Source: Streptomyces corallincola
GTDB lineage: Bacteria > Actinomycetota > Actinomycetes > Streptomycetales > Streptomycetaceae
NCBI RefSeq assembly: GCF_019104725.1
Contig: NZ_JAHRXF010000002.1
Location: 186,001-250,000 of the forward strand
DNA length: 64,000 nucleotides
Direction: 5' to 3'
Part shown: one piece after another, positions 15,290 to 31,306 of the stretch
Layout of the letters: every line of letters begins with the position of its first letter
Position numbering within the stretch: position 1 is the first letter of the stretch
Translations under genes and position numbers: made by a program
The notes under the pieces: generated by a model
Database searches by the model: none
Told to the model about the DNA's origin: nothing
What the model saw: only the letters and a program-made list of their open reading frames with translations

Positions 15290-15306
15290 ACCGGCCCCCG
15301 TACGCC

Positions 15307-16095
15307 TCACAGCTCCACGTACACCACCGACGCGTCGTCGTGCGTCTTGCTCCGGCGCAGGAACGCCCGCTCCTCCCGGTCCGCCGCCTCCCGTTCGCGC
15401 ACCCGGCGGACCAGGGCGGCGGCGCCCTCCTTGGCCACGAGGTCGAACAGGGCCGTCCAGTCGCCCTCGCGGAAGGTCTCGGTCCAGCGGGCCGCGCCGT
15501 CGGTGAGCGCGGTGAGCGCGGTGACGCGGGCGCGCGGGAGGGTCCCGGTGACCGCGCGCGCGGCGACCGAGGGATCGGCGGCGGCGGTGAAGAAGCCGCC
15601 CTCCCTGTTGCGCAGGTTCGCGTCGATCAGCGCGTCCGTGGCCAGCGCCGAGCGGGGCAGCCGGGCCAGCCGGTCGTCGAGCAGCGGGGTGACCGTGCCG
15701 TCGGGCGCCCGCACCAGCAGTGTGGAGTCCGACAGCACCAGATACTCCACGGCCTCGGCGGACCAGCGGGCCAGCACCACGGTTGCCTGCGGAGTGCGCG
15801 GGTGAGAAAGGTCACAGGTGTCCGCGTGGGCCGCCGCCGTGCGCTCCAGGGCCCGCCGGAGAATCTCCGGGAGCGTCAGATCCCGCTCGGAAACGGTCAG
15901 TTCGGTCAGCGCCCCGCCCAGCCGCGCGGTGAACCAGGGGACGGAATGCGGACAGCCGGTACCGTCACGCGGCGGGGTCACCCCGTCCAGCAGGACCACA
16001 CAACCGCCCTGCCCGTACGCGGGAACCCCGACACCGGCGAAGTCCTCGTTCGGGCGGTGCGGGTCGCCGGGCTCCGAAACGAGTTCCGTACGCAT
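15307..16095 (-). CDS. PP2C-like protein phosphatase
   Basis: 262 residues. It begins MRTELVSEPGDPHRPNEDFAG, like the PP2C N-terminus in which NED carries a metal-binding aspartate, continues with CVVLLDGVTPP (DG motif) and LSDSTLLV, and ends KTHDDASVVYVEL, the usual PP2C DD-containing C-terminus. Metal-binding motifs therefore appear largely kept, and a serine/threonine phosphatase activity is plausible. ATG at 16095 is preferred to a longer frame whose first 58 residues look non-conserved. It stands alone, divergent from cvnA. Confidence 0.75.
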   Translation of the reverse strand: MRTELVSEPGDPHRPNEDFAGVGVPAYGQGGCVVLLDGVTPPRDGTGCPHSVPWFTARLGGALTELTVSERDLTLPEILRRALERTAAAHADTCDLSHPRTPQATVVLARWSAEAVEYLVLSDSTLLVRAPDGTVTPLLDDRLARLPRSALATDALIDANLRNREGGFFTAAADPSVAARAVTGTLPRARVTALTALTDGAARWTETFREGDWTALFDLVAKEGAAALVRRVREREAADREERAFLRRSKTHDDASVVYVEL

Positions 16096-16467
16096 CCGGC
16101 CAGTCTGCACGACTGCGCCACGGGCCGCCGCGCACCCCCGCGACCGAACCGGAATCACCACGGCCGCGCAGGTCAGGAGCCGGGTTTGCGGCTCATTGGC
16201 GGGGTTCGGGAAGACGTGGCGGCGAATACTGCCAAAGCCTGCCCCGCGCGTCCAACCGGCCCACCGCACGGGACACGCGCACGCGCCGGAGGAACTTGCC
16301 CGCCAACTCCCCGCCGATGTTCACTCCTTCGGGTGGCCGGTCTTGCGATGCGCGACCACTGCCCACCGGCGCTGGGAGGGTCTGGAACCGTACGAACCGG
16401 GTGGACGCACCACTTGGCACCGAGACGACGGGGCACCATCCGGTCCCTCGGGTAAGCGACTTCAGGA
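16096..16467. other. Gene-free interval between the PP2C-like gene and cvnA
   Basis: 372 bp of divergent upstream sequence. It must hold promoters for both genes, but no -35/-10 pair, riboswitch or convincing inverted repeat stands out. Confidence 0.5.
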
Positions 16468-19401
16468 ATGCGAGCACCGGTGCAGATGAAGCGGCCTCGG
16501 CGCACAGGCAGGCAGACGGCCCCCCGGGGGACCGCCGGACGGACCCCCGTGGAGACCCAGGCCCCCGTGGGCACCGGCCGCCCCACCCATGTACGCAACC
16601 GGCTGATCGTCGCCGTCGCCGTGGTGGCCGCCGCCGTCGCCGGAGCGGGCGCCCCCGCGCTGCTCACCGCCTCCGGGAACCTCAACGACTCCCAGCGCCT
16701 CGCCACCCTCGCGGCCCGCACCCAGGACGCGCTGGCCCTCGCCGGTGCCCTCGCGGACGAACGCGACCAGGTCACCGCGTACGTCGCCGCCGGGCGCCCC
16801 AAGGACAAGGCGCCCGCCGAGCAGCAGAGCGCCCGCGTGGACCGCCGGATCGAGGACCTGCGCGCCGACACCGGCATCCCCGCCGCGCTCCGCACCGACC
16901 TCGACGGCATCGCCGCCGTCCGCCGCGCCGCCCTCACCGGCACCACCGACGCGCTCCGCACCCACCAGGGCTACTCGGCCACCCTCACCGAACTGCACCG
17001 GCTCACCGAGCAGTTGGCGCAGGCGACCCCGCCGCGCGCCGGTGCCGGGGGCGCCGCGCTGGCCCAACTCGACACCGCCGTACAGCAGTCCGCCGCCGCA
17101 CGCGGCCTGCTGCTCGCCGCGCTCGGCGTGCCGACCACCACCCGCACCACCATCGACCCGGTCACCGGCCTGCCGGTCACCACCACATCCCCGACGGAGA
17201 GCGGGCGCAAGGAGCGCGACGCGCTGACCGCCGCCGCCCAGCAGGCGAGACTGCGCGCCGACGCCGCCCTCGGCGCGTTCCGCGACACCGCGCCCGCCGC
17301 CGCGCTGGACGCCTACGACTCCACCGTCACCGGCTCCGACGTCAACTCCGCCGACAAGTACCTCGCCGCCCTCACCGACCAGCCGGTGTTCAGCGACGCC
17401 GACGCGGCCACCGACCCCAAGCGCCTGGACACCGCGCTGTCCGGCCGGATCGACGTCATGCGCGGCACCGAGGCCGCCCTGTACGACCGCCGGACCAAGG
17501 ACCTCGCCCGGCTCCGCGACGACGACGTCACCGCCCTGGAGATCCGCGTCGCCGTGCTCGGCGTGCTGATCCTGGTCACCCTCGGCGTCGCCACCGCGTC
17601 CGCCCGCACCCTCACCCGCCCGCTGTCCGTGCTCCGGCGCGGCTCCGCCCGGCTCGCCGGGGCCGAGGACCCGGCCGCCGAGGAGCCGATCGCCTTCACC
17701 GGCCGCGACGACGAGTTCGCCCAGGTCGTCCGCTCCGTCAACGCCCTGCACACGCACGCCCGTTCACTGCACGAGCGGATCGGCACCCTGGAGGCCGACC
17801 GCAAGCACCTGGTCGGCCAGCGGCAGAAGATGGCCGACGCCCGCGAGGGACTGCGCGCCGAACTTGCCGAATCCGCAGCCCACTTGGAGCGGCTGCGCGG
17901 CAGCATCGGCGGCACGTTCGTGAACCTCGCGCTGCGCACCCTCGGCCTGGTCGAGCGCCAACTCGCCGTCATCGAGGGCCTGGAGGAGCGCGAGCAGGAC
18001 CCCGAGCGGCTCGCCACCCTGTTCAAACTGGACCACTTCGCCACCGTCATGCGGCGGCACAGCGAGAACCTCCTCGTCCTCGCCGGTACCGAACACGTCC
18101 AGCAGCACCCCGGCCCGGTCCCGCTGGTGGACGTGGTCCGCGCGGCCGTCAGCGAGATCGAGCGGTACGAGAGGGTGCGCATCGCCGCGCTGCCCCCGCA
18201 CACGCACCTCGCGGGCTTCGCCGCCGACGACCTCTCCCATCTGCTCGCCGAACTCATGGAGAACGCCACCTCGTTCTCCCCGCCCGACCTCCCCGTGGAG
18301 GTCTCCGGCTGGCTGATGGAGACCGGCGAGGTCATGCTCTCCGTGCAGGACGAGGGCATCGGCCTGGCCGACGACCGCCTCGACCGCGTCAACGCCCGCC
18401 TCGCCGCCTTCGACCCCGAGACGCCGTACGAGCAGGAGGCCGAGGACGGCCTCGGCCTCGGGCTGTACGTCGTCGCCCGCCTCGCCCACCGGCACGACGT
18501 ACGTGTGCAGCTCCGGGAGCAGAAGCAGGGCGGGGTCGCCGCCGTCGTCGTCCTGCCCGCCACGCTCCTCGCACAGGCACCGGCCGCGCCCGTACCCCCT
18601 CCGGCCGCGCACGCCGACACCGGCCGGACCTTCTCCCTGCCGGGTGCCGACGCCGAGGCCAACTCCAATGTCCTGCCCACCCGTTCACCGCACCGCGACC
18701 CGCTGATCGCCCTGGCGGAACGCGCGGCCCGCACGGCGGAGAAGGACGACACCGCACCGGAGCCCCCCGCTCCCGAGGCCGCGGAGGCGCCCCCGGCCGC
18801 CGAGGCCCCCGCAGAGCCCCCCGCTGTCCAGGCCCCCGCCGAGGCGCCCGCCCCGGCCGCGGAACCCCCCGCCCCGGCCGACCCCGCCGAGGCCCACGTC
18901 CGTCCCGAGGAGTCCGCGCCGGTCACCCCCGAGATCCCCGCACGGCCGAAGGCCCCCGCGGAGACCCCGGCCGAGACCACGATGGAACTCCTGCTGCCGG
19001 ACCCGGCCCGCGAGACCCCCGGCACCGCCGGGACCGTGCGCGCCCCCGGCCACCCGTCCACCCCGGAGCCCGCCACCGCCGTCGAGCCCCGCCACCCGGA
19101 GATCCCCGGAACCCCCGAGCCCTCGGAATCCGCCGCGCCCGGCACCCCGCCCGCCGACCCCGCCGACCCGGCCGAGGCCGACGAGGTGACCGACAAGGGG
19201 CTGCCCAAGCGCACGCCCAGGGTCGCCGCGCCCGCCGCCCCGCCCCGCCAGCGCACCGGAGGGGTGGACGCCGAGGCGCTGCGCCGCAGGCTCGGCGGCT
19301 TCCGGCAGGGAGCGCGGGCCGGATACCGGGACGTCGAGGCGGAGCACGCGGAACGCACCGAAGAAGCCACGGGGGGCACAGTCGAGGAGGCAAGCAGTTG
19401 A
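16468..19401 (+). CDS. cvnA: Conservon sensor-kinase-like protein CvnA
   Basis: 977 residues. Membrane segment at about 45-68, a long extracellular helical sensor (NIT-like: LADERDQVTAYVAAG, QQSAAARGLLLAAL), second span near 361-385, HAMP, a helical region with LDHFATVMRRHSENLLVLAG, and a HATPase with ELMENATSFSPP (about 595) and DGLGLGLYVVARLAHRH (about 661). The last 300 residues are a Pro/Ala/Glu-rich tail ending near a basic FRQGARAGYRD segment. In conservons it works with CvnB, CvnC and the GTPase CvnD in a membrane-associated complex. Start ATG 16468 has only a very close AGGA; GTG 16480 is an alternative. Stop overlaps cvnB. Confidence 0.92.
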   Translation: MRAPVQMKRPRRTGRQTAPRGTAGRTPVETQAPVGTGRPTHVRNRLIVAVAVVAAAVAGAGAPALLTASGNLNDSQRLATLAARTQDALALAGALADERDQVTAYVAAGRPKDKAPAEQQSARVDRRIEDLRADTGIPAALRTDLDGIAAVRRAALTGTTDALRTHQGYSATLTELHRLTEQLAQATPPRAGAGGAALAQLDTAVQQSAAARGLLLAALGVPTTTRTTIDPVTGLPVTTTSPTESGRKERDALTAAAQQARLRADAALGAFRDTAPAAALDAYDSTVTGSDVNSADKYLAALTDQPVFSDADAATDPKRLDTALSGRIDVMRGTEAALYDRRTKDLARLRDDDVTALEIRVAVLGVLILVTLGVATASARTLTRPLSVLRRGSARLAGAEDPAAEEPIAFTGRDDEFAQVVRSVNALHTHARSLHERIGTLEADRKHLVGQRQKMADAREGLRAELAESAAHLERLRGSIGGTFVNLALRTLGLVERQLAVIEGLEEREQDPERLATLFKLDHFATVMRRHSENLLVLAGTEHVQQHPGPVPLVDVVRAAVSEIERYERVRIAALPPHTHLAGFAADDLSHLLAELMENATSFSPPDLPVEVSGWLMETGEVMLSVQDEGIGLADDRLDRVNARLAAFDPETPYEQEAEDGLGLGLYVVARLAHRHDVRVQLREQKQGGVAAVVVLPATLLAQAPAAPVPPPAAHADTGRTFSLPGADAEANSNVLPTRSPHRDPLIALAERAARTAEKDDTAPEPPAPEAAEAPPAAEAPAEPPAVQAPAEAPAPAAEPPAPADPAEAHVRPEESAPVTPEIPARPKAPAETPAETTMELLLPDPARETPGTAGTVRAPGHPSTPEPATAVEPRHPEIPGTPEPSESAAPGTPPADPADPAEADEVTDKGLPKRTPRVAAPAAPPRQRTGGVDAEALRRRLGGFRQGARAGYRDVEAEHAERTEEATGGTVEEASS

Positions 19402-19892
19402 CCGCGCCCAGTACCTTCGGGCTGAGCAGTGAGGCCCGCAACCTGCACTGGCTGCTGACCAATCTGGTCGAGGAGGTCCCCGGCATCCAGTCCGTCGCCG
19501 TGGTCTCCTCCGACGGCCTGCTCCTGCTCTCGTCCGACCCCGCCCACGCCGCGCGCGGGACGGCGGGCGGGACCAGGGGTCCCCGCGGCTCCTCGGCCGA
19601 CCTCGCCACCATCGTGTCCGGCATCGGCAGCCTCACCGTCGGCGCCGCCCGGCTGATGGACAGCGGCGCGGTCCGGCACACGATGGTCGCCATGAACGAG
19701 GGCAGCCTGTTCGTCATGTCCATCAGCGACGGCTCGCTGCTCGGTGTGCACGGCGCCGCCGAGTGCGACATGAGCGTCGTGGCGTACCACATGGCCCTCT
19801 TCGTGGGCCGCGCCGGACACGTCCTGACCCCCGAACTCCGCGACGAGCTGCGCGAGTCCCTGGAGGCCGAGTCCGCCGGGAGCGCCCGATGA
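19398..19892 (+). CDS. cvnB: Conservon roadblock/LC7 protein CvnB
   Basis: 164 residues of roadblock/LC7 (MglB-like) type: LSSEARNLHWLLTNLVEEVPGIQSVAVVSSDGLLLL, IGSLTVGAARLM and VVAYHMALFVGRAG. Such proteins act as activators or scaffolds for small Ras-like GTPases, here CvnD. The start is TTG at 19398, overlapping the cvnA TGA and preceded by GGAGG. A Gly/Arg-rich insert (HAARGTAGGTRGPRGSSA) interrupts the domain. Confidence 0.92.
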   Translation: MTAPSTFGLSSEARNLHWLLTNLVEEVPGIQSVAVVSSDGLLLLSSDPAHAARGTAGGTRGPRGSSADLATIVSGIGSLTVGAARLMDSGAVRHTMVAMNEGSLFVMSISDGSLLGVHGAAECDMSVVAYHMALFVGRAGHVLTPELRDELRESLEAESAGSAR

Positions 19893-20320
19893 GCGATCCG
19901 GCCGGGCGGAAACAGCTCCCGGTGCGCGGCGGCGACCGCAGGCCCGCCCGCGTCCGTCCCTACTCGCTGACCGGCGGCCGTACCCGCTTCGGCCACGTCC
20001 TGCTGGTGGAGACGTTCGTCGCGGCGACCTCCGCGACGGAGGCGCTGGAGGCCGCCGAGGAGCGCAGGGAGCTGCCGACGGGCACGCTCGCCGGGGTCAT
20101 GCCCGAGATGCGGGCCATCGTCGAAGTCTGCCGCCGGATGCGCACGGTGGCCGAGATCGCCGCGCTGCTGAGGATGCCGCTCGGCGTGGTCCGGGTCCTG
20201 CTGAGCGACCTCGCGGACCAGGGAAAGATCCGTGTGTACGGCACGGGGACCGGACACGGCACCGGCCGCCCGGACCGCGCGCTGCTGGAAAGGGTGCTGA
20301 GTGGACTCCGCCGTCTCTGA
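19889..20320 (+). CDS. cvnC: Conservon DUF742 protein CvnC
   Basis: 143 residues with the DUF742 winged-helix-like pattern: RVRPYSLTGGRTRFGHVLLVETFV, MPEMRAIVEVCRRMRTVAEIAALLRMPLGVVRVLLSDLADQGKIRV. Its ATG overlaps the cvnB stop (ATGA) and its 3' end overlaps cvnD by 20 bp. Part of the CvnABCD signalling complex. Confidence 0.92.
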   Translation: MSDPAGRKQLPVRGGDRRPARVRPYSLTGGRTRFGHVLLVETFVAATSATEALEAAEERRELPTGTLAGVMPEMRAIVEVCRRMRTVAEIAALLRMPLGVVRVLLSDLADQGKIRVYGTGTGHGTGRPDRALLERVLSGLRRL

Positions 20321-20984
20321 CGCCACCGGTGTCGATGCCCGCCCCGGAGGGCTCCCCGTGTCCGCCGGGCTCACCGGGCCCACCGGGTTCGTCCTGCCCG
20401 ACGAGGCCCCGAAGTCCTGGCAGGAGGACCGCACCCGCGCCCCCGTCGCCACCAAGATCCTGGTGGCGGGCGGCTTCGGCGTCGGCAAGACCACCCTGGT
20501 CACCACCGTCTCGGAGATCACGCCGCTGGAGACCGAGGCGCTGATGACCGAGGCGAGCGCGGACACCGACGACCTGACCGCCACCCCGGACAAGGTGACC
20601 ACCACGGTCGCTATGGACTTCGGGCGCCTCACGCTCGACGACGACCTCGTCCTCTACCTGTTCGGCACGCCCGGCCAGGAGCGCTTCTGGTTCATGTGGG
20701 ACGACCTCGCGCGCGGCGCGATCGGCGCGGTCGTCCTGGCCGACACCCGCCGTCTGAAGGACTGCTTCCCCGCGCTGGACTACTTCGAGAGCCGCGGCCT
20801 GCCGTACGTCGTCGCCGTCAACCACTTCGACGGCAGCGAGCCGTTCGACCCGGCGGACGTCCGGGAGGCCCTGACCGTCCCGCCGCACGTCCCCGTCATG
20901 ATCATGGACGCGCGGCGCCGGATCTCGGCGATCGAGACCCTGCTGGCCCTGGTGGCCCACGCCCTGGACGAGACCCCCGAGTAG
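20301..20984 (+). CDS. cvnD: Conservon Ras-like GTPase CvnD
   Basis: 227 residues. G1 loop GGFGVGKTT after a 45-residue N-terminal extension, G3-like FGTPGQERFWFMW, G4-like NHFDG, and a long C-terminal helix. It is the GTPase of the conservon and is the output switch of the CvnA-C complex in the models for this family. GTG at 20301 starts inside the end of cvnC. No lipid-anchor cysteine is visible at the C-terminus. Confidence 0.93.
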   Translation: MDSAVSDATGVDARPGGLPVSAGLTGPTGFVLPDEAPKSWQEDRTRAPVATKILVAGGFGVGKTTLVTTVSEITPLETEALMTEASADTDDLTATPDKVTTTVAMDFGRLTLDDDLVLYLFGTPGQERFWFMWDDLARGAIGAVVLADTRRLKDCFPALDYFESRGLPYVVAVNHFDGSEPFDPADVREALTVPPHVPVMIMDARRRISAIETLLALVAHALDETPE

Positions 20985-21051
20985 CCCCGGCCCGCCCCCC
21001 GACCAGTTTGAGCAGCACCGATCATCACCGATCAAGGAGTGCCCCACCGGT

Positions 21052-22305
21052 ATGCGGAAGATACTCGTCGTCGGAGCCGGTCAGTCCGGTCTCCAGCTCG
21101 CCCTCGGCCTCCAGTCGCACGGCTACGAGGTCACCCTGATGTCGAACCGGACCGCGGACGAGATCCGCTCCGGCCGGGTCATGTCCACGCAGTGCATGTT
21201 CGACACGGCACTCGGGCACGAGCGCGACCTCCAGATCGACTTCTGGGAGTCGCAGGCACCGAGGATCGAGGGGCTCGGCGTCTCCGTCGCCGCCCCCGGC
21301 TCGCACGACCCCGGCCCCACCGAGCGGATCATCGACTGGGTCGGCCGCCTCGACGGCTACGCCCAGTCCGTGGACCAGCGGGTCAAGATGGCCGGGTGGA
21401 TGGACACCTTCGCCCAGCGCGGCGGCCAGCTCGTCATCCACGGCGCCGCCGTCGGAGACCTCGACTACTTCTCCCGCACCTACGACCTCGTCCTGGTCGC
21501 CGCGGGCAAGGGCGAGCTGGTCTCGATGTTCGCCCGCGACCCCGAGCGCTCCCCGTACGACCGCCCGCAGCGCGCCCTCGCCGTCTCCTACGTGCACGGC
21601 CTCGGCCCGCGCCCGGAGCACCCCGACTTCGACGCCGTCCGCTGCAACCTCGTACCCGGCGTGGGCGAGCTGTTCGTGATGCCGACGCTGACCACCTCGG
21701 GCCGGGCCGACATCCTGTTCTGGGAGGGCGTGCCCGGCGGCCCGCTCGACGCGTTCGACGGCGTACGCGACCCGGCCGAGCACCTGGCCCTCACCCTGGA
21801 GCTGATGGAACGCTTCACGCCGTGGGAGTACGCGCGGGCCACCCGTGTCGAACTCACCGACGCGGGCGGCACGTTGGCCGGCCGCTACGCCCCGACCGTG
21901 CGCAACCCGGTCGCCGTCCTGCCCTCCGGCGGCCTCGCCCTCGGCGTCGCGGACGTCGTCGTCGCCAACGACCCGATCACCGGCCAGGGTTCCAACTCGG
22001 CCGCCAAGTGCGCCGCCGCCTACCTCGGCGCCATCCTGGAACACGGCGACAAACCGTTCGACGCGGACTGGATGCGCTCCGCCTTCGACCGCTACTGGGC
22101 CACCGCCCGGCACGTCACCAAGTGGACCAACACCATGCTCGCCCCGCCCCCCGGGCACGTCCTCGACCTCATCGGCGCCGCCGGACAGCTTCAGCCGGTC
22201 GCCGACCGCTTCGCCAACGGCTTCGACGACCCGGCCGACTTCGAGAACTTCTTCTACGACCCGGAGAAGACCGGCGCCTACCTGACCTCGGTCGCGGGGG
22301 CCTGA
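21052..22305 (+). CDS. StyA-like FAD-dependent styrene/indole monooxygenase family protein
   Basis: 417 residues. N-terminal FAD-binding Rossmann motif ILVVGAGQSGLQLALGL, then RTADEIRSGRVMSTQCMFDTAL typical of StyA/IndA proteins, and a C-terminal GQGSNSAAKCAAAYLGAIL flavin motif. Such enzymes epoxidise styrene or indole with FADH2 supplied by a separate reductase; none is next to it. AAGGAG lies upstream of the ATG. It begins 67 bp after cvnD on the same strand, so it may be the last gene of the conservon operon, and it converges on the atropopeptide P450. The substrate here is unknown. Confidence 0.85.
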   Translation: MRKILVVGAGQSGLQLALGLQSHGYEVTLMSNRTADEIRSGRVMSTQCMFDTALGHERDLQIDFWESQAPRIEGLGVSVAAPGSHDPGPTERIIDWVGRLDGYAQSVDQRVKMAGWMDTFAQRGGQLVIHGAAVGDLDYFSRTYDLVLVAAGKGELVSMFARDPERSPYDRPQRALAVSYVHGLGPRPEHPDFDAVRCNLVPGVGELFVMPTLTTSGRADILFWEGVPGGPLDAFDGVRDPAEHLALTLELMERFTPWEYARATRVELTDAGGTLAGRYAPTVRNPVAVLPSGGLALGVADVVVANDPITGQGSNSAAKCAAAYLGAILEHGDKPFDADWMRSAFDRYWATARHVTKWTNTMLAPPPGHVLDLIGAAGQLQPVADRFANGFDDPADFENFFYDPEKTGAYLTSVAGA

Positions 22306-22405
22306 CCGCTCGTCCGGTGCGGCGGACGGCGGCCAGGGCGCCCGGCGCAGGCCGCGGTGAACGCCGCCCGCCGAGCCGCTGACCGCGCAACCCCTCCTGG
22401 CTTCC

Positions 22406-23470
22406 TCACGAATCGGGTGTGTTCTTTGAGTGGACGATACGCACGTTTTCCACACCCATGAGCCCCGTGAGCGGAACGCGCGCGGACTTCTGGGCAGGGT
22501 CCACGATCAGCCCGCTGGAGCGCACTTTATCCAGGAGCATTTCCGCGAGGGGGAGTACCATATGGCGTCCCCAGCACCGCTCGCTGGCGTGACCGAACGG
22601 GATGTATCCAGGGGTGTTTTCCGGATCGAGTTCCGCCCAGCGTTCGGGACGGAATTCTTCGGGCCGGTCCCAGAGTGCGGGATCACGGTGGCTGAGAATG
22701 GGGAGTACGAGGATGTCGTCCTGCGGAAGAATGCGACTGTCTATTACCGGGTATTCTGGTGACGCGTTGCGGAGGATATTCCAGCTCGGTGGCAGCATGC
22801 GCAACGATTCATGGATAATGTGCCGGTTCGGAGTGTCGTCACCGAATGGAGCTCCCAGCCACATCGCGTTGGCCACCAGTGTGGAGACGGTGAAGCAGAC
22901 CGGGGCGGCCGTGCGCCGGTACAGACCCATGCCGTAGCGCCGCTCGGCATAGGTCTTCGCACCAAGACTGAGACCACCGAGGTGTGTGTGCCCGGCCCTG
23001 CGGCGCGAGGTCGGAAGGGCGGCCCCGAGGGTGATGGCGGTCCAGGTGAGCCTGGTGGTCAGCTCCAGGGCGCGGTCCATCAGAATCCGCAGCCGGTAGG
23101 GGTCGGCGCCGAGGATCAGATCCCGCAGGTAGATGTGGCCCACGTGCGGCCACGGGCCCGCCAGGTCACGCTGGTCGGCTGCGGCCTCCTTCAGCGCGGC
23201 TCGTACGTCCTTGCCGATGGCCTGCATCTGGGTGGAGGCCTGTGAGTGTGGGATGGAGCGTCCCAGCAGCGGCTTGAACGTGGGGCGTTCCGTCTTCGTG
23301 GCCGGCCTGGCCGCGAGTATCCGGTCGATGACCTCGGGCCCCGCGACGCCGATGGTGTCGGGTTCGAGACGGAACACATCCTGGCCGAGATGCTGCCGCA
23401 GGAGAGCTTCCAGCCTCGGGGCGAAAACCGTCACCCGATCGAAATTTCTGGTATCGGAGGACGACTGCAT
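22406..23470 (-). CDS. Atropopeptide-type cytochrome P450
   Basis: 354 residues, short for a P450. The K-helix ExxR is E221-S-L-R224, the PERF-like motif is FRPERW (273-278), and the haem loop is PFGHASERCWG with ligand Cys299. The canonical I-helix AGxD/ET motif is missing: the region before ExxR reads VCFTVSTLVANAM. No ferredoxin or reductase gene is adjacent. GGAG precedes the ATG at 23470. It lies 110 bp downstream of the precursor gene on the same strand, with a hairpin between. In tryptorubin biosynthesis one P450 builds the C-C and C-N bridges of the hexapeptide; this is the inferred role. Base composition looks less GC-biased than in the neighbours. Confidence 0.9.
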   Translation of the reverse strand: MQSSSDTRNFDRVTVFAPRLEALLRQHLGQDVFRLEPDTIGVAGPEVIDRILAARPATKTERPTFKPLLGRSIPHSQASTQMQAIGKDVRAALKEAAADQRDLAGPWPHVGHIYLRDLILGADPYRLRILMDRALELTTRLTWTAITLGAALPTSRRRAGHTHLGGLSLGAKTYAERRYGMGLYRRTAAPVCFTVSTLVANAMWLGAPFGDDTPNRHIIHESLRMLPPSWNILRNASPEYPVIDSRILPQDDILVLPILSHRDPALWDRPEEFRPERWAELDPENTPGYIPFGHASERCWGRHMVLPLAEMLLDKVRSSGLIVDPAQKSARVPLTGLMGVENVRIVHSKNTPDS

Positions 23471-23494
23471 CGCTGCTTCTCCAAACTGGTCTGA

Positions 23495-23534
23495 GCGGGT
23501 GCCCGACGGCTCAGAAGAACCGCAGGGCACCCGC
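23495..23534 (-). terminator. Intercistronic hairpin between precursor and P450 (attenuator-like)
   Basis: GCGGGTGCCC (23495-23504) pairs perfectly with GGGCACCCGC (23525-23534) around a 20-base loop; a second small stem CCTTTC/GAAAGG lies at 23551-23567. No T-run follows in the direction of transcription, so it more likely lowers P450 expression relative to the precursor, or protects the upstream mRNA, than ends transcription completely. Confidence 0.6.
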
Positions 23535-23580
23535 CCGGCCTACTGGCCGACCTTTCCGCGAGAAAGGACGGATGAGGGGA

Positions 23581-23661
23581 TCAGAACCAGATGTACCAGG
23601 CGTGCGCCTTCAGGCTCTTCTCGGCGGAGAGCTTGTTCTTGAGCGAGAGAAGCTTCCTCAT
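23581..23661 (-). CDS. Atropopeptide (tryptorubin-like) RiPP precursor peptide
   Basis: A 26-residue peptide. The 20-residue leader reads MRKLLSLKNK then LSAEKSLKAH: basic, helical and rich in Leu/Lys. The final six residues are AWYIWF. Tryptorubin A derives from an AWYIWY core, so this core differs only in its last residue (Phe for Tyr), and a tryptorubin B-like product is expected if memory of that structure is right. GGGGA lies four bases before the ATG. The stop directly follows the core, so no follower exists; only leader removal would be needed. The P450 gene follows on the same strand. No peptidase or exporter is adjacent, as is normal for this class. Confidence 0.92.
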   Translation of the reverse strand: MRKLLSLKNKLSAEKSLKAHAWYIWF

Positions 23662-23762
23662 TTTTCCCCACTTTCTCTGAGCGTTGCCGAAATTCACTGA
23701 CGCTTCTGACCGCAGTCCGAAAGGCTGCCGTCTCGGCGCTGGCAGGCAGTCAAGCCCACGGC

Positions 23763-23776
23763 TGACAGCCCTGTCA
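23763..23776. promoter_or_regulatory. Palindrome upstream of the precursor gene
   Basis: TGACAG-CC-CTGTCA, a perfect 6+6 inverted repeat, lies about 100 bp upstream of the precursor ATG. On the minus strand it contains TTGACA, which could act as a -35 box; a second TTGACT is close by. No clear -10 was found, so it is only a candidate operator or promoter. Confidence 0.35.
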
Positions 23777-24130
23777 ATGATGCTTTGTCGACCGCTCCTG
23801 GCGGCGGGTCGCCGGCTCAATGCATAAGTGAGGAACCAGTCCGTCCCTTCACGGCCCGCGACCATGTACTTTCCGGGAGAAGCCACCTGGCGGCGGGTGC
23901 GGGACACGAGGCGTCCGGCCGGTTTCTGAACCTTTTCGACGGTCGTGCCCGTGCACACCATGACGGGTTGTGGACAGCCCGCGCCGGGGGCCGGCCCCCG
24001 GCGCGGCCGTGCTCGCGTGACGGCATTCCACGCCCGCGGGTCGCATCGAGGCGGGAGACGTCTTGGAGCTGAGCGAGCGCCGACACGACATTCAGGTCTC
24101 CGCGCGGGCGGCGCCGGACGGTGACAGTCG
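23777..24130. other. Gene-free interval between the RiPP locus and the NlpC/P60 gene
   Basis: Frames here have no family-like sequence and no ribosome binding site worth naming. The stretch separates the less GC-biased RiPP locus from the normal backbone and probably marks one edge of the inserted DNA; no att-like repeat or transposase remnant is visible. Confidence 0.5.
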
Positions 24131-24165
24131 CGGCAGGCGGCAGGCGGCAGGCGGCAGGCGGCAGG
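24131..24165 (+). repeat. Five tandem copies of a heptanucleotide
   Basis: CGGCAGG is repeated five times without change directly downstream of the stop codon of the NlpC/P60 gene (minus strand). Likely slippage-generated, and possibly variable among strains. Confidence 0.85.
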
Positions 24166-24167
24166 CG

Positions 24168-25295
24168 TCAGCCGGAGTTGCCGTGCGGGGGCGTGGCGGG
24201 TGCGGACGGCGCCGCACCGGGTACGGCAAATCGCAGTGTGCCGGGCCGCGGGGCGTCCGGGCGGACCGCGCCGAGTACCGGGTTCGCCGCCAGCGGGGAG
24301 ACCCTGACGGTGTCGCCGGGGCGTGGGGCCTGGACCACCTTGCCCTCACCGAGGTACATCGCCACATGGGTGGCGTCCGCGAAGTACACCACCAGATCGC
24401 CGGGCCGCAGGTCGTGCAGCGGGACGCGGGCCAGCCGCGCCCACTGCTCCTGGCTGGTCCGGGGGATCGGGGTGCCCGCGTGCCGCCACGCCTCGGAGGT
24501 CAGCCCCGAGCAGTCGTACGATCCCGGTCCCCGCGCCCCCCACCGGTACGGCTTGCCGATCTGCTCCAGGGCGTAGCGCACCGCCCGGTCGCCCTCGCCG
24601 GACGGCGGCTTGTCGTCGCCGAGGGCGCCGGAGTCGGTGAGGTCCCGCTGGGCGCGGTCGGTCTCGTCCCGCTCCAGCCGGGCGAGCGCGGCGAGCTGGT
24701 CCGGGGTGAGCGAGGCGAGCATCCGCTCCACGTCCTTCAGGCGCCCGGTGACGTCGTCGCGCCGACCGCGCTGCTGACCGGCGAGGGTGAGCCGGGTGTC
24801 CAGCGCCGCGCGGGCCCGCTTCGCCAGCGCGTCCTGCTTCCGCTCCGCCCCGGCGAGCCGGGTCACCGCGGCCTGCCGCTCACGGGCCAGCTGCCCGATC
24901 ACATGCCCCTCGTCCAGCATGTGCTGCGGGTCGCGGGCGAGCAGCAGCCGCACGTAGGGGGAGAAGTCGGTGCCGCTCTGGTACTGCCTGCGGGCCAGCC
25001 GTCCGGCGTCGATCCGGCTGCCGCGCAGCGCGAGCCGTACCCGTGCCAGCTCCCCGTCCAGCCGGGCGACCACGGCCTGCTGCGCCGCCAGCCGCTCGGC
25101 GGCGGCGTTGTACGACTCGGTGGCCTGCTCGGTCTGCCGGTACAGCCGCTGAAGGTCCGTCAGCAGTTCGGACACCGGTCGGTCGGCCACCGGTCGGTCG
25201 GGCGTGGGCGCGGCCCCGGCGGGCGCGACCGGCAGCAGGACGGCCTGGGCCGCCACCACCGCCGTGCAGGCCAGCCGCCGCAGCACTCCTGACAT
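24168..25295 (-). CDS. Secreted NlpC/P60 peptidoglycan hydrolase
   Basis: 375 residues. Signal peptide (MSGVLRRLACTAVVAAQ...APAGA), a long coiled coil (about 40-215, RLYRQTEQATESYNAAAERL), then the NlpC/P60 domain with catalytic Cys262 in YDCSGLTSEAW, His310 in DATHVAMYLG and Gln322 as likely third residue. It is the RipA-like design of actinobacterial endopeptidases that cut the D-Glu-mDAP link of stem peptides. A near-perfect site GGAGGTGATC precedes the ATG. Monocistronic; no c-di-AMP riboswitch is recognised in the short 112-bp leader. Confidence 0.93.
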   Translation of the reverse strand: MSGVLRRLACTAVVAAQAVLLPVAPAGAAPTPDRPVADRPVSELLTDLQRLYRQTEQATESYNAAAERLAAQQAVVARLDGELARVRLALRGSRIDAGRLARRQYQSGTDFSPYVRLLLARDPQHMLDEGHVIGQLARERQAAVTRLAGAERKQDALAKRARAALDTRLTLAGQQRGRRDDVTGRLKDVERMLASLTPDQLAALARLERDETDRAQRDLTDSGALGDDKPPSGEGDRAVRYALEQIGKPYRWGARGPGSYDCSGLTSEAWRHAGTPIPRTSQEQWARLARVPLHDLRPGDLVVYFADATHVAMYLGEGKVVQAPRPGDTVRVSPLAANPVLGAVRPDAPRPGTLRFAVPGAAPSAPATPPHGNSG

Positions 25296-25407
25296 GTGAT
25301 CACCTCCGGAGCGCAGCCGGCGGCTCCTCCGCCCGCTTCTACGAGGTGATAATCAGACGTGCCGATATGCGGTGTGGAGCATCACTGCTCCGTCCGGCGC
25401 AACGTTC

Positions 25408-25713
25408 TCAGTCCTGCGGGTCACCCGGCTTGCCGGAAGCGCCGCCGGGGGGCTTCCCCCAGGGCAGCCGGGCCCGCAGCCCGGTCGGCCCGCCCACCGG
25501 GTCGTGCACGTACTTCCACCCCCGCACCAGCCCCAGCCGTTTCCCGTACGCGCGCGGCTCCCGCCGGTACACCAGCACGGTCGGCGGGCCCCCGGCCGCG
25601 TCCGGGACGGGGATGCGGTACGTCTTCGGCGGGTTCCCGGTCGGGCCGACCGGCACGGGCAGCGTCCGCCCGTCCATCGGGCCGCCCTCGAAAAGGGTGT
25701 CGTGACTCTTCAC
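25408..25713 (-). CDS. Conserved hypothetical protein
   Basis: 101 residues, beginning with GTG (KSHDTLFEGGPMDGRTLPVPV) and containing PKTYRIPVPDAAGGPPTVLVYRREP and YVHDPVGG. No catalytic motif, signal or membrane span. The EGGPMDGRTL and YR/P segments are typical of a small streptomycete family of unknown role. It starts ten bases after the TetR stop and is probably the last gene of that operon. Confidence 0.7.
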   Translation of the reverse strand: MKSHDTLFEGGPMDGRTLPVPVGPTGNPPKTYRIPVPDAAGGPPTVLVYRREPRAYGKRLGLVRGWKYVHDPVGGPTGLRARLPWGKPPGGASGKPGDPQD

Positions 25714-25723
25714 GTCTCAAGTC

Positions 25724-26377
25724 TCAGCCATCGGCCGCGAGCGTGCCGACGAGGGCCGCCGTCTGCGGATCGCGGGCGGCGGTCACGGTGAGCTGCGCCA
25801 CGAACTGCTCCACCAGCCAGTCCCGCAGCTCCGCCGCGGGCGGCTGCTTCCCCTCGTCCAGCCAGATCAGCGAGGCCGCCTCCACGGCCGCGATCCACAT
25901 CCGCACGGTCATCCGGAGCCGGGGTCCCGGCTCCGCGACCCCCAGGTGCCGGTGGATGTGCGCCGCCGCGGCCGTCCGCACCCCGTCCACGATCGAGGTC
26001 GTCCGTGAGGTCGCCGCCACGCTCCCGCCCCGCAGCAGCGCGCTGAACCCGGCGTCGTGCACGTCCACGAATCCCAGATACCGGTCGAGCGCCCGGCCCA
26101 GCCGGGGCAGCGCCGGACCCTGCCGGGGCTCGTCGAAACAGTTCCGCAGCTCCTCGGCCGCCGACGTCAGCGCCGCCTCGTAGAGCTGCGGCTTGCCGCC
26201 GGGGAAGTACCGGTACACCAGCGGCCGCGACACCCCGGCCGCCTCCGCCACGTCGTCGAGTGACACGTCCTCCGGCGCCCGGTGCGCGAACAGCGCCAAC
26301 GCCACCCCGAGCAACTGCCCCCGCCGCTCCTCGACTCCCAGCCGCCGATAGCCGGGCCCGACTCCGGACGCACGCAT
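25724..26377 (-). CDS. TetR-family transcriptional regulator
   Basis: 217 residues. N-terminal helix-turn-helix EERRGQLLGVALALFAHRAPEDVSLDDVAEAAGVSRPLVYRYFPGGKPQLYEAAL, then a helical ligand domain. It follows the diiron oxygenase by 54 bp on the same strand. A palindrome at 27429-27442 before the oxygenase is the likely operator, which would make this regulator control its own operon. Confidence 0.92.
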   Translation of the reverse strand: MRASGVGPGYRRLGVEERRGQLLGVALALFAHRAPEDVSLDDVAEAAGVSRPLVYRYFPGGKPQLYEAALTSAAEELRNCFDEPRQGPALPRLGRALDRYLGFVDVHDAGFSALLRGGSVAATSRTTSIVDGVRTAAAAHIHRHLGVAEPGPRLRMTVRMWIAAVEAASLIWLDEGKQPPAAELRDWLVEQFVAQLTVTAARDPQTAALVGTLAADG

Positions 26378-26431
26378 ATGAGCACCCTACGACGCCCCCC
26401 GCTTGTGGACCTGCCCGCCGGGGGAGACCCC

Positions 26432-27370
26432 CTACGCCAGCAGCCCCGACGCCTTCCACAGCCGGCGCCCCACTCCGCGCAGAACGCCTATCTCGTCCAA
26501 GAAGTCGGTGAGCCGCTTCGCTCCGCTCTGCATGACCTCCCGCCGGTGCCCACTCGCCCGCACCTGGGCGACCGCCTCCGCCCGGTCCAGCCCCACGTTC
26601 GTATAGACCTCGGGATTGACGAAGGCGACGGAGAAGAGGCGGGCGAACTCCCCGGAGGTGACCCGGGTGAACTCCTGGGACCACCGCGGAGCGGTGACCA
26701 TCTGGCGCCGCAGCTCCTCGCGGGCGTACCGGACGTGCCGTGCCTCCTCGACCACGTGGATGCGCGTGACTCCCCGCACCAGCGGCTGCACCCGCTCGTC
26801 CGGGAACGTCAGCCGCTGCATCCAGTCGAGCACCTCCTCACCGAGCAGCGTGGCGGTGAAGGACCCCGGCGTGGTGGAGACCGTCTTGAACACGCGGCCC
26901 AGGTTCTGGTGCGCCCGGCTCACCGGGTACCAGGGCGTGCCCCCGCGCTCGATCAGCCGCGCGAACATCTTCGAGTGCCGGCACTCGTCCTCGATCTCGG
27001 TGAGCGCGTACCGCACATGCGCGCTGGTCGCGGCCTTGTCGTAGACGTGCCGGACGAGCAACTGCATCAGGATCAGCTCGAACCAGATGCCCAGCGACCC
27101 CAGCGCCGCCGCCTCATGTCGGGACAGCAGCAGCCGCTGCTCCTCTCCCATCCGCTTCCACAGCGGGGTGCCGTACAGCGAGACCAGTTCCGGCGGCCAG
27201 AACCACTTGCCGTCCTCGAAGGGCGCGTCCCAGTCCAGCTCCCTGTCGGGATCGAAGGAGTGCCTGGCGGACGCGGCGAGCAGCCGCTCGGCCACCTGTT
27301 CGCGGTCCCTCAGCGCCCCGAGCGCGTCCCGCAGCCCGTCCACCGCCTCGGCGTCCGTGAGCGTCGTCAT
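26432..27370 (-). CDS. AurF-like diiron oxygenase
   Basis: 312 residues, all-helical, with two diiron ligand motifs: TEIEDECRH (Glu129, His132) and HVVEEARH (Glu209, His212), the ferritin-like pattern of the AurF p-aminobenzoate N-oxygenase family. The substrate cannot be inferred. GAGGGAG precedes the ATG at 27370. It is first in an operon with a TetR regulator and a small protein, so a ligand-induced function (detoxification or tailoring) is plausible but not shown. Confidence 0.85.
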   Translation of the reverse strand: MTTLTDAEAVDGLRDALGALRDREQVAERLLAASARHSFDPDRELDWDAPFEDGKWFWPPELVSLYGTPLWKRMGEEQRLLLSRHEAAALGSLGIWFELILMQLLVRHVYDKAATSAHVRYALTEIEDECRHSKMFARLIERGGTPWYPVSRAHQNLGRVFKTVSTTPGSFTATLLGEEVLDWMQRLTFPDERVQPLVRGVTRIHVVEEARHVRYAREELRRQMVTAPRWSQEFTRVTSGEFARLFSVAFVNPEVYTNVGLDRAEAVAQVRASGHRREVMQSGAKRLTDFLDEIGVLRGVGRRLWKASGLLA

Positions 27371-27428
27371 GGCTCCCTCACCCACCCTGTTACCCGTGGT
27401 ACGTCATCGTCGTCCTCCTTATGAGACT

Positions 27429-27442
27429 GCTTGTCAGCAAGC
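27429..27442. promoter_or_regulatory. TetR-type palindrome upstream of the diiron oxygenase
   Basis: GCTTG-TCAG-CAAGC, a perfect 5+5 inverted repeat with a 4-base spacer, about 60 bp upstream of the oxygenase start. Size and spacing suit a TetR dimer, and the only regulator in the operon is TetR. Confidence 0.6.
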
Positions 27443-27490
27443 CCGTCAATCCCCCCGCGCGGGCAAACCCCGCGAGCGGTCCACCCGCGA

Positions 27491-28975
27491 CTAGCGCGCC
27501 AGCACCGCCCGCATCACCTCCCGCGCGATCGGCGCCGCGTCCCCGCCCCCGCTGATCTCCCCCCGGTCCGCCGACGCGTCCTCCACCACCACCGCGACCG
27601 CCACCGCGGGCACCTCCGCCCCGGCCGCCTGCGCCCAGGACACGAACCAGGCGTACGGCACCCCCGAGTTGCCCACCCCGTGCTGCGCGGTGCCCGTCTT
27701 GCCGCCGACCAGCGCGCCGGGGATCGCCGCGTTGGTGCCGGTGCCCTCCTGGACCACGCCCGCCATCAGCTCCTTCAGCCGCGCGGCCGTGGCCGCCCGC
27801 ATCACCTGCCGGTCCGGACGCACCGAGGTCCCGTTCAGCGCCTGCCCGTCCGGCCGGGTGGTCCGCTCCACGAGATACGGCGTCCGCAGCCGCCCCCCGT
27901 TGGCGACCGCCGCCGCGACCATCGCCATCTGCAACGGCGTGGCCCGCGTGTTGTACTGCCCGATCGAGGACAGCGCGAGCTGCGCCCGGTCCACACTGGT
28001 GTCGAAGGTGCTCTTCGCCACCGGGAACGGCATCCGCACACCGGGGTCGTTGAACCCGAACGCCTCCGCCGTCGCCGTCATCTGCGGCACCCCCACGTCC
28101 ACCCCGAGCTTGGCGAACACCGTGTTGCACGACCACTCGAACGCGTCCCGCACCGAGGCGTCCCGGCACCCGTCGCCCTCGTTGGTCAGCCGGGTCGTCG
28201 TCCCCGGCAGCCGGTACGGATCGGGGGAGCGGGTCCGCGCGTCCAGGTTCGTCACCACACCCGCGTCCAGCGCCGCCGCCGCCGTCACCACCTTGAACGT
28301 CGAACCCGGCGGATACGTCTGCCGCACCGCCCGGTTCAGCATCGGCTGCTCCGGGTCGTGGTTCAGCCGCGCCCACGCCGACGACACCGCCTCGCTGTTC
28401 CCGGACAGCTCCGCCGGGTCGTACGACGGCGTGGACACCAGTGCCAGCACCCGCCCGGTCGCCGGTTCGACCGCGGCCACCGCGCCCCGCCGCCCGCCGA
28501 GCCCCTGGAACGCGGCCCGCTGCGCGGCCGGGTCCAGCGTCGTCACCACGTCACCGCCCGGCCCGCCGTCCCGCCGTACGTCGTGCCAGAGCGCGAACCC
28601 GCTGATCAGCGGATCGGTGCCGGACAGCACCCCGTCATGGGTGTGCTCCAGCAGCGTGGTGCCGTAGAGCTGCGAGGCGAAGCCGGTCACCGGGGCGTAC
28701 AACGGGCCGTCCCGGTAGGTGCGTTCGTAGCGGAGCTGCTCGCCGGTGTCCACCGAGCCCGTCACCGGCCGCCCGCCGACCAGGATGTTCCCGCGCGGCA
28801 CCGCGTAACGGGCGATCACCGCGCGCCGGTTGGCGGGGTTGTCGTCGTACGCCCCGGCCCGTACCACCTGCACCCGCGCCGCGTTCACCAGCAGCGCGGC
28901 CAGCAGCAGCGCGCAGAACACGCGGGCCCGCCGGATGTACGGCGCCATCGGGCGCCCCCCGCCGTACTCGCTCAC
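27491..28975 (-). CDS. Class B penicillin-binding protein (PBP2/PbpA-like)
   Basis: 494 residues. One N-terminal membrane anchor (RVFCALLLAALLVNAARV), a short dimerisation domain, and a transpeptidase with STFK (active Ser near residue 227), SCN and GKTGTAQ. It crosslinks peptidoglycan outside the membrane. The GTG at 28975 follows GGAGG; an ATG nine codons later is possible. It lies 25 bp downstream of a SEDS glycosyltransferase on the same strand, so the pair forms a complete wall-synthesis unit, distinct from the usual oriC-proximal pbpA-rodA pair because no PknB or FHA genes are adjacent. Confidence 0.93.
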   Translation of the reverse strand: MSEYGGGRPMAPYIRRARVFCALLLAALLVNAARVQVVRAGAYDDNPANRRAVIARYAVPRGNILVGGRPVTGSVDTGEQLRYERTYRDGPLYAPVTGFASQLYGTTLLEHTHDGVLSGTDPLISGFALWHDVRRDGGPGGDVVTTLDPAAQRAAFQGLGGRRGAVAAVEPATGRVLALVSTPSYDPAELSGNSEAVSSAWARLNHDPEQPMLNRAVRQTYPPGSTFKVVTAAAALDAGVVTNLDARTRSPDPYRLPGTTTRLTNEGDGCRDASVRDAFEWSCNTVFAKLGVDVGVPQMTATAEAFGFNDPGVRMPFPVAKSTFDTSVDRAQLALSSIGQYNTRATPLQMAMVAAAVANGGRLRTPYLVERTTRPDGQALNGTSVRPDRQVMRAATAARLKELMAGVVQEGTGTNAAIPGALVGGKTGTAQHGVGNSGVPYAWFVSWAQAAGAEVPAVAVAVVVEDASADRGEISGGGDAAPIAREVMRAVLAR

Positions 28976-29000
28976 GGAGCCTCCCGGTGCTCGTACCGGC

Positions 29001-30359
29001 TCATGGAGCCTCCCGTCCGTCGTACTGGCCGCGGGCCGAGTCGCTGACCCGGATCAGCAGGGCGACGATCGCCCAGTTGGTGACCACCGAGGAACCGCCC
29101 TGCGCGAGGAACGGCATCGCCATGCCGGTGAGCGGGATCAGCCCGGTCACCCCGCCCGCGATCACGAACACCTGGAGCGCCAGCAGCGAGGCGAGCCCCA
29201 CCGCGAGCAGCCGCCCGAACGGCTCGCGCAGCGCCAGCCCCGCCCGGTAGCCCCGCTCCACCAGCACCCCGTACAGCAGGACGATCGCCGCCAGCCCGGC
29301 CAGGCCCAGTTCCTCACCGGCGGTCGCCAGCACGAAGTCGGACTTCACGGCGAACCCGATCAGCACCGAGTGCCCGAGCCCGAGCCCGGTGCCGGTGACC
29401 CCGCCCGCCGCGAACGCGAACAGCGACTGCGCGAGCTGGTTCGGCCCCCGACCGGCGTCGATGGTGGCGAACGGACGCAGCCAGTCGTCGATCCGCCCCG
29501 CCACATGCGGCTCCACCTGCCCGACCGCGTACGCGCCCCCCACCGCCAGCAGCACCCCGACCGCGATCCAGCCCGTCCGGCCCGTCGCCACGTACAGCAG
29601 CACCACGAACAGCCCGAAGAACAGCAGCGAGGTCCCGAGGTCCCGCTCCAGCACCAGCACGCCGACACTGAGCAGCCAGATCGCCACGATCGGCCCCAGC
29701 ACCCGCCCGGTCGGGAACTGCATCCGCCAGAGCCGACGGCCGGTGTACGCCAGCGCGTTGCGGTTCGCGGCCAGGTACGCGGCGAAGAACACCGCCAGCA
29801 GCACCTTGGCGAACTCGCCCGGCTGGATGGAGAACCCCGCGATCCGCACCCAGATCCGGGCGCCGTTCACCGCCGGGAACAGGATCGGCAGCGCCAGCAG
29901 CGCCAGCGCGGCCACCACACAGACGTAGGAGTACCGCTGGAGCACCCGGTGGTCGCGCAGCACCAGCACCACCGCGATGAACAGCGCCACCCCGAGCGTG
30001 GACCACACCAGCTGCGCGGGCGCCGCCCGGTCGTGCGGCGTCTCCAGGTCCAGCCGGTAGATCAGCACCAGCCCCAGCCCGTTCAGCAGCACCGCGATGG
30101 GCAGCGGCAGCGGATCGGCGTACGGCGCCCTGATCCGCACCGCGACATGCGCGCACAGCGCCAGCACCCCGAGCCCCGCCCCGTACCCGGCGGCCCCCGG
30201 CGGCACGCTCCCCGTCCGCGCCAGGCCCACCGCGCAGTACCCGTACACCGACAGCAGCACGGCCAGCACGATCAGCGCCAGCTCGACCCCCCGCCGCCGC
30301 CCCACCCGCGCCCCCACGGCGGGCGGCGCGGCGACGGGGGCGGGTCCGACCTTGCTCAT
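29001..30359 (-). CDS. SEDS-family peptidoglycan glycosyltransferase (FtsW/RodA-like)
   Basis: 452 residues with about ten to twelve membrane helices. SEDS landmarks: GARIWVRIAGFSIQPGEFAKVLLAVFFAAYLA, LERDLGTSLLFFGLF, and a C-terminal GMAMPFLAQGGSSVVTNWA. It polymerises lipid II with its partner PBP encoded just downstream. Streptomycetes carry several SEDS paralogues; this one probably acts in a differentiation- or condition-specific wall process, which is inference. The ATG has only a weak ribosome binding site. Confidence 0.93.
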   Translation of the reverse strand: MSKVGPAPVAAPPAVGARVGRRRGVELALIVLAVLLSVYGYCAVGLARTGSVPPGAAGYGAGLGVLALCAHVAVRIRAPYADPLPLPIAVLLNGLGLVLIYRLDLETPHDRAAPAQLVWSTLGVALFIAVVLVLRDHRVLQRYSYVCVVAALALLALPILFPAVNGARIWVRIAGFSIQPGEFAKVLLAVFFAAYLAANRNALAYTGRRLWRMQFPTGRVLGPIVAIWLLSVGVLVLERDLGTSLLFFGLFVVLLYVATGRTGWIAVGVLLAVGGAYAVGQVEPHVAGRIDDWLRPFATIDAGRGPNQLAQSLFAFAAGGVTGTGLGLGHSVLIGFAVKSDFVLATAGEELGLAGLAAIVLLYGVLVERGYRAGLALREPFGRLLAVGLASLLALQVFVIAGGVTGLIPLTGMAMPFLAQGGSSVVTNWAIVALLIRVSDSARGQYDGREAP

Positions 30360-30508
30360 GCCCGGAACTTACCCAAAGAGGGCGTTCGTCACGTGATGTG
30401 ACGCGGGCACCCGCCGTCTTGCCCGCCCCCCGCCCCGCCTGTTCCCATGAGAGGAGGGGGCCGTGTCCCGGCGACCGGGTCCGGGGCCGTGGCGAGGGGT
30501 GAGGGCGC

Positions 30509-31306
30509 ATGGGCGAACTGCGCGTGGTACCGGCGTGGCGGCACGGCCGGGAACGGCTGTACGTCCGCGCCCGCGACGGCCGGAACATCGCCTGGTACGA
30601 CCGTGACACCGGCCGGGTGAACCTCCTCGCCGACGACAGCCGTACGGCGGTCCTGGCCGCCCTGCACCCCTTCGTCGCCGGGCCGCTGACCGTCGGCCCG
30701 CCGCCCGTCCCCACCCCCGCCGAACTGGCCAGGCTCAGCCTCCACCCCGACGACGACCTCGCCCCCAACCGCCCCGGCGAGGCCCTGCTCGTCGCCCTCG
30801 ACCGCGACCCCGGCCCCCGGCTGCGCGCCGACCCGCGCCGCCGTGCCCTGGCCGCCGAGCGCGCGGCGGGGCAGGCCCTGGACGCCCTGGAGGGCGCGGG
30901 CTGGCGCACGCTCCACTCCGTCCCGCTCCCCGGCGGCGACCGCGTCCATCACCTCCTCATCGGCCCCGGCGGCCTCTACGCCCTCCACACCGTCGCGGCC
31001 CGCGGCCACCGCGTCCACGTCCGCGACCCCGACCTGCGCGTCGGCCGCGCCGCCCCCCGCCCCACCATCCGGTACCTCCGCACCCTCACCGACCGCGCCA
31101 CCCACGCCCTCACCGCCGAGGTCCACCCCGTCCTGCTCCTCGTCGATCCCGCCACGGTCACCGTCCCCACCCCACCCCGAAGAGTCCGCGTCCTCCCCCT
31201 CTCCGACCTCCCCACCCTGGCCCGCACGGGCGGCGCCCTGAAACCGGGGGACGTGGAGGCACTGCACGCGATGGCACGGGACCGGGGGACGTGGGGGAGG
31301 GCGTGA
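30509..31306 (+). CDS. NERD (nuclease-related) domain protein, motif degenerate
   Basis: 265 residues. The core AAGQALDALEGAGWRTLHSVPLPGGDRVHHLLIGPGGLYALHTV fits the NERD pattern, but the usual Asp before the H(L/V)(V/I)GP box is His, and the Lys of the EtK box is replaced (ALHTVAARG), so nuclease catalysis is doubtful. No membrane span. GAGGGGTGAGGG precedes the ATG. It is divergent from the SEDS-PBP operon. Confidence 0.75.
   Translation: MGELRVVPAWRHGRERLYVRARDGRNIAWYDRDTGRVNLLADDSRTAVLAALHPFVAGPLTVGPPPVPTPAELARLSLHPDDDLAPNRPGEALLVALDRDPGPRLRADPRRRALAAERAAGQALDALEGAGWRTLHSVPLPGGDRVHHLLIGPGGLYALHTVAARGHRVHVRDPDLRVGRAAPRPTIRYLRTLTDRATHALTAEVHPVLLLVDPATVTVPTPPRRVRVLPLSDLPTLARTGGALKPGDVEALHAMARDRGTWGRA

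Follow-up and report, generated by a model that had tools for sequence, protein, structure and literature searches.

AWYIWY is the core of tryptorubin A. Atropopeptides are an established RiPP family, for which the available text of PMC11450843 describes 683 putative loci, a KSLK motif in the precursor, a two-gene design, a docking model and a dedicated tool, AtropoFinder; an atropopeptide rule is also listed in antiSMASH 8.0. WYIWY is the tryptorubin B sequence (PMC11450843). The same residues end LauA, the precursor that belongs to LauB1 (PMC12352619), and LauB1 makes the three-bond tryptorubin B (PMC11450843). Varsorubin B1 carries three tryptorubin-type bonds including a pyrroloindoline, with a calculated ion of 791.3511 corresponding to WYQWL minus 4 H, and receives these bonds despite a Leu as its final core residue (PMC11450843). 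Minus 6 H, relative to the respective core, is found for laurentirubin B, which has four bonds, and for its hexapeptide; the last Tyr is used only by a second P450, LauB2, in the aryl-ether bridge (PMC11450843). SvaB yields products with three bonds and with one, and a ribosome site added before svaB resulted in a 100-fold yield gain (PMC11450843); ScaB is promiscuous and forms one bond, with a loss of 2 Da (PMC12352619).

We analysed a stretch of 64,000 nucleotides from Streptomyces corallincola (the window), in which two genes had been proposed, from the letters alone, to form a tryptorubin-type locus. Both were found at that place on the minus strand (Table 1), and leader type, KSLK motif, core, partner and phylogeny all agree with this identity. 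We therefore hold it highly probable that they constitute a two-gene atropopeptide cassette, consisting of a KSLK-leader precursor and a family P450 predicted to cross-link AWYIWF. Since the family is already published, with its 683 putative loci and its antiSMASH 8 rule, the locus is an addition to it and not a new kind. It is ordinary as a kind, and what stands out are the rare core, the signs of recent acquisition and the stem in the spacer.

The tryptorubin-type loci of Streptomyces sp. SID11385 and SPB074 share with the window the two-gene order, the 26-residue precursor, the sequence KSLKAHAWYIW and the single P450, but their cores end in Tyr where that of the window ends in Phe, and the GC content of the cassette here is lower; the SPB074 cassette also occupies a different chromosomal place. 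The laurentirubin locus (lau, S. laurentii; available text of PMC11450843) has a family precursor and the same first P450 type, but adds a second P450 and a C-terminal Tyr for the aryl ether, whereas the only other P450 on the contig of the window (E ≤ 1e-10) lies about 55 kb away and the core has a C-terminal Phe. The scabrirubin locus (sca, Embleya scabrispora; PMC11450843, PMC12352619) likewise combines a KSLK leader, a WxxW core and one P450, but its core is TWFIWYS and its product is described as a tetrapeptide with a single bond. The biarylitides (P450Blt; PMC13417212) are also P450 cross-linked RiPPs, but their precursor is a pentapeptide encoded by an 18-bp gene, unlike the 26-residue, leader-bearing precursor in the window.

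Precursor and P450 genes

The precursor gene measures 81 bp including its stop codon, starts with ATG, and its peptide is present once in the genome. All residues (1-26) of MRKLLSLKNKLSAEKSLKAHAWYIWF align to positions 1-26 of NF038372 (tryptorubin_fam), the curated NCBI model for tryptorubin family RiPP precursors, with an E-value of 7.5e-13 and 48.5 bits, over the cut-off of 33 bits. PMC11450843, in its available text, characterises atropopeptide precursors by length and motif, and places KSLK at 17-20 in its alignment; the peptide falls within the expected 10-40 aa, with KSLK (elsewhere a close variant) separating leader and core. The core has its Trp at position 2, is a hexapeptide as is usual, and ends immediately 5' of the stop codon (AWYIWF-stop), while its xWxxWx pattern assigns it to the bitryptides, the WxxW subset. 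The expectation that gene callers and cluster finders would miss such a precursor is outdated, given the NCBIfam precursor model, the antiSMASH 8.0 rule and AtropoFinder.

Table 1. Positions of the features discussed, numbered along the window
Feature	Coordinates	Strand	Basis
Precursor gene, 26 codons and stop	23581..23661	-	Encodes MRKLLSLKNKLSAEKSLKAHAWYIWF; NF038372 tryptorubin_fam match
KSLK motif, residues 15-18 of 26	23608..23619	-	Predicted P450-docking element of the leader; sequence and family motif in PMC11450843
Predicted core AWYIWF, residues 21-26	23584..23601	-	Position equals that of the AWYIWY cores of SPB074 and SID11385
110-nt spacer with stem-loop	23471..23580	-	Arms 23517-23534 and 23495-23512; GGAG ribosome site 23479-23482; shuffle z, inverted repeat, two-sided changes
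Cytochrome P450 of the atropopeptide type (354 aa), predicted to cross-link the core	22406..23470	-	PF00067 E 2.2e-14; identity to family P450s; tree
ExxR motif (E221, R224)	22799..22810	-	E..R.LP.SWN in 106/106 distinct family P450s
Haem-ligand motif FGHASERCWG (Cys299)	22568..22597	-	FGHxxERCWG in 105/106 distinct family P450s
Segment with no equivalent at the same junction of relatives; limits of the inserted DNA approximate	22307..24241	.	Ends of homology; neighbours without P450

The P450 gene follows the precursor after a gap of 110 bp. We prefer the ATG at 23470 as its start, given a GGAG 8 bases before it; a GTG at 23530 is an alternative that would extend the protein to 374 aa. PF00067 covers only the C-terminal part, yet truncation was rejected as an explanation, as the relatives are of like length (343-415 aa by our own ORF calls in 130 locus records, window included). 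The AlphaFold model is confident (pLDDT 83, pTM 0.86) and matches P450 structures, with a best TM of 0.60 among the 50 solved structures listed; the top match in a sequence search of solved structures scored 42 bits, in the C-terminal part. The closest P450 found, from Streptomyces sp. Tu6071 (P450 alone seen), is 76% identical, followed by those of SID11385 (75%) and SPB074 (73%), which stand beside AWYIWY precursors and are the nearest P450s with an observed precursor, both following MRLLFSLKNK(M/L)SQQKSLKAHAWYIWY. A plasmid collection contained 18 records with P450-level similarity of 67-71%.

Phylogenetic placement was assessed by a quick tree search, with SH-aLRT support only, of 53 family P450s (window included), thinned from 106 at 88% identity. 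The ApyO family was sought as an outgroup, but no member was found in 101 genomes, where its control likewise gave no match, and hence P450s from the same genome were used: eight of the 13 with a readable frame (of 19 loci), all on long branches. These eight lie outside the family on a long branch with support of 99, while the window P450 pairs with the SPB074-type P450 at SH-aLRT 99, nested among precursor-bearing family loci. A position outside the RiPP P450s had been named as a reason to abandon the assignment; instead, the enzyme falls inside the atropopeptide P450s, in a tree that holds no characterised P450s of other RiPP families.

A structured spacer between the two genes

The 110-nt spacer folds with -62.7 kcal/mol, giving a z of -5.5 against dinucleotide shuffles, whereas the 110 nt upstream of the precursor are not structured (z 0.8); the corresponding spacers of SID11385 and SPB074 have z of -3.9 and -1.5, respectively. 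Strong folding of the precursor-P450 spacer is enriched in the family: z was ≤ -2 in 69 of the 94 distinct spacers no shorter than 60 nt, a count that overstates independent events because the spacers are related, against 7/94 random windows, 16/84 co-directional and 8/30 convergent intergenic regions (Fisher p ~2e-13 for family versus co-directional, relatedness ignored). The intergenic controls were delimited with our own rough gene caller in 45 loci, minus those below 12 kb. Five of the 99 distinct spacers were left out as shorter than 60 nt, including L025 and L018, both without structure, and the spacers of L007, L093, L121 and L118 fold barely better than their shuffles.

In eight aligned spacers, hand-chosen from the branch of the window and neighbouring branches, and with measures that relatedness can inflate, the 16-pair stem shows two-sided changes at five of its 16 pairs, with 93.8% of cells paired versus 38-48% when the pairing is slid. 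Cells paired and covariation score both beat 500/500 shuffles, while the observed values were reached by 2/500 shuffles for cells with two-sided changes, 11/500 for two-sided pairs and 69/500 for further pair types. The AWYLWY group (11 rows) has a second stem of different sequence with three two-sided pairs, although two of the 11 rows lack it and its covariation term is unfavourable (+2). A terminator scan gave one site, in the spacer at 23534-23522 on the minus strand, with 0.8 expected by chance, and Rfam had no match within 20000-27000. The main texts of PMC11450843 and PMC12352619, as available, make no mention of an intergenic stem-loop.

In our reading, the stem likely keeps P450 output below precursor output; the 100-fold gain obtained with svaB fits, but does not prove, a stem that throttles the P450. 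If the stem-loop sets the enzyme dose, it would point to a simple way of improving yields, which are low for these peptides. The wider proposal is that in atropopeptide loci a selected RNA stem-loop, kept by compensation, throttles the P450 relative to the precursor, that this explains the svaB result, and that here it travelled with a newly acquired deoxy-tryptorubin cassette; we advance it tentatively, leaning slightly towards doubt.

Genomic setting of the cassette

Homology to relatives ends near 22306 and restarts at 24242-24258 in the 16 that have a match on the right-hand side. The right limit is imprecise and could be closer to 24168, since the NlpC gene is itself divergent at its end. 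Of 18 same-genus stretches, 16 contained both flanking genes, the StyA-type oxygenase and NlpC/P60, at distances of -20 to 2032 bp (≤371 bp in 12/16), and none of the 18 junction stretches contained a P450 match at E 1e-10. The two exceptions are a contig end (L156) and SPB074 (L151); in SPB074 no NlpC was found at this place and the cassette lies elsewhere (740 kb vs 1,929 kb). Two genomes (G003 and G016) have a family precursor on another contig as well. With regard to composition, the P450 gene has 64.6% GC versus 72.0% in its surroundings, and this deficit of 7.4 points is the largest of 76 loci (maximum deficit of the 75 others 7.1, median difference +0.6); its third-position GC is 77.5%, versus 95.7 and 92.8% in the two neighbours. 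Because the P450 is low in GC and the flanks adjoin without the cassette in relatives, recent acquisition is the simplest reading of these sequences. Inspection of the ORF lists recognised no transposase or integrase among the translations around the junction, a repeat search gave no strong repeat pair flanking the segment, and the single tRNA in 15000-32000 is at 30543.

Its low GC points to a late entry into this genome, so that expression may be poor, and one alternative takes this further by supposing that the cassette is a recent arrival now silent or decaying in its host. The GC deficit, the empty junction in relatives and the distance to the nearest P450 found (76% identity) speak for this, but neither frame is broken, the ribosome sites and key residues have been retained, only three positions conserved in at least 95% of family P450s are altered, all mildly, and the pairing of the spacer stem is kept. 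On balance we consider silence or decay somewhat unlikely. A sigma-70 scan of 22250-24200 found no promoter; such scans represent Streptomyces promoters badly.

We also considered whether cassette and neighbours form one cluster, and rejected this because relatives have the conservon-like, StyA-type oxygenase, NlpC, TetR, ferritin-like and PBP genes but not the cassette among them. The conservon-like operon and StyA-type oxygenase at 16468-22305 are found in Streptomyces relatives; from their arrangement, we take the operon members to be a histidine kinase, a roadblock protein, a DUF742 protein and a small GTPase. Two repeat features were seen on the NlpC side: a perfect 28-bp palindrome (CCGCGCCGGGGGCC/GGCCCCCGGCGCGG) at 23979-24006, in the gap upstream of the precursor, and GCGGCAG-type repeats at 24130-24175, with three 18-nt copies 14 bp apart, spanning the NlpC stop by the edge of the inserted segment.

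Predicted product

In the mechanism that we propose, the leader helix and KSLK would dock on the P450 and the core would thread into its active site, where the enzyme likely makes three bonds, i.e. a Trp2-Trp5 C-C bond, a Trp2-Tyr3 C-N bond and a bond from Trp5 to a backbone nitrogen (pyrroloindoline), for a predicted net loss of 4 H. Release of the product, as the hexapeptide or as the pentapeptide WYIWF, would fall to a host protease encoded outside the locus. By analogy with varsorubin, the C-terminal Phe should be tolerated, since the Leu of varsorubin does not prevent the three bonds and the final residue lies outside the bonds held in common. Lacking the phenol of Tyr, this Phe would make the product a deoxy analogue of tryptorubin, without the capacity for a LauB2-type aryl-ether bridge as in laurentirubin, and the locus would add an easily tested natural tryptorubin variant lacking the C-terminal phenol.

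For three-bond chemistry (-4 H), arithmetic predicts C49H52N8O8 with [M+H]+ 881.3981 for the hexapeptide and C46H47N7O7 with [M+H]+ 810.3610 for the pentapeptide, and the same calculation returns the published ions of varsorubin B1 and laurentirubin. The original prediction of AWYIWF minus 6 H for three crosslinks needs correction: three tryptorubin-type bonds cost 4 H, as in varsorubin B1, and minus 6 H belongs to four-bond laurentirubin, so that its value would be 2 Da too low. The corrected mass spares a search at the wrong m/z.

A different outcome would be that the P450 forms a single Trp-Trp bond and that proteases trim both ends, leaving a scabrirubin-like monocycle, WYIW or WYIWF, with a loss of 2 H. 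For a single bond, the predicted [M+H]+ would be 883.414 for the hexapeptide and 812.377 for the pentapeptide. The 2 Da loss in ScaB products (PMC12352619) and the one-bond by-product of SvaB (PMC11450843) give precedents for this, and by analogy with the described enzymes the number of bonds varies with the P450. The window P450, however, pairs in the tree with a P450 beside an AWYIWY precursor, and LauB1, acting on a precursor with a WYIWY end, yields a three-bond product. We thus judge the monocycle unlikely, and retain three bonds as the expected chemistry.

Distribution within the family

Of 392 genomes sampled from the genus, among them that of the window, 47 matched NF038372 (42 over the cut-off), against none of 14 control genomes. 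The locus set comprises 130 records including the window, with several genomes present twice, and in 125 of these the P450 is preceded, at no more than 500 bp and in the same orientation, by a motif-matching precursor. Although the GC-rich DNA here has many short ORFs, a chance reading frame adjoining an unrelated P450 is vanishingly improbable, being ruled out by the curated model match (E 7.5e-13) and by the 129 other locus records (counting duplicates), in which the two genes are arranged in identical order.

The 99 distinct precursor-spacer pairs found by motif have cores ending in Tyr (81), Ile (14), Phe (2), Val (1) or Trp (1). AWYIWF is thus uncommon (2/99 distinct loci), and its two occurrences are on separate branches, the second locus (G262, L026) standing beside a Streptacidiphilus AWYIWY locus; the P450 of the window therefore belongs to a different branch from that of the only other AWYIWF locus seen. 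Based on these positions, the change from Tyr to Phe at the core end probably arose twice. Neither the AWYIWF core nor NF038372 was found in the literature searched, which consists of main texts and includes few subscription papers.

The remaining five of the 130 records also have a precursor: three contain KNLK, one has a diverged leader (L089), and the fifth is L078. KNLK replaces KSLK in L022, L090 and L114, of which L022 and L114 represent the same genome (G358), and this variant is absent from the motif list in the available text of PMC11450843. The L089 precursor, MAKKIREAIFGARSFKRVAWYHWY, has no KSLK-type motif at all and lies about 115 bp upstream of a family P450; it would escape the motif filter described for CoreFinder. 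Finally, the family P450s P0053, P0059, P0077, P0090, P0112 and L091 are labelled Collimonas, Micromonospora, Paraherbaspirillum, Caulobacteraceae, Dyella and Burkholderia, labels that go beyond the genera named in the available text of the literature.
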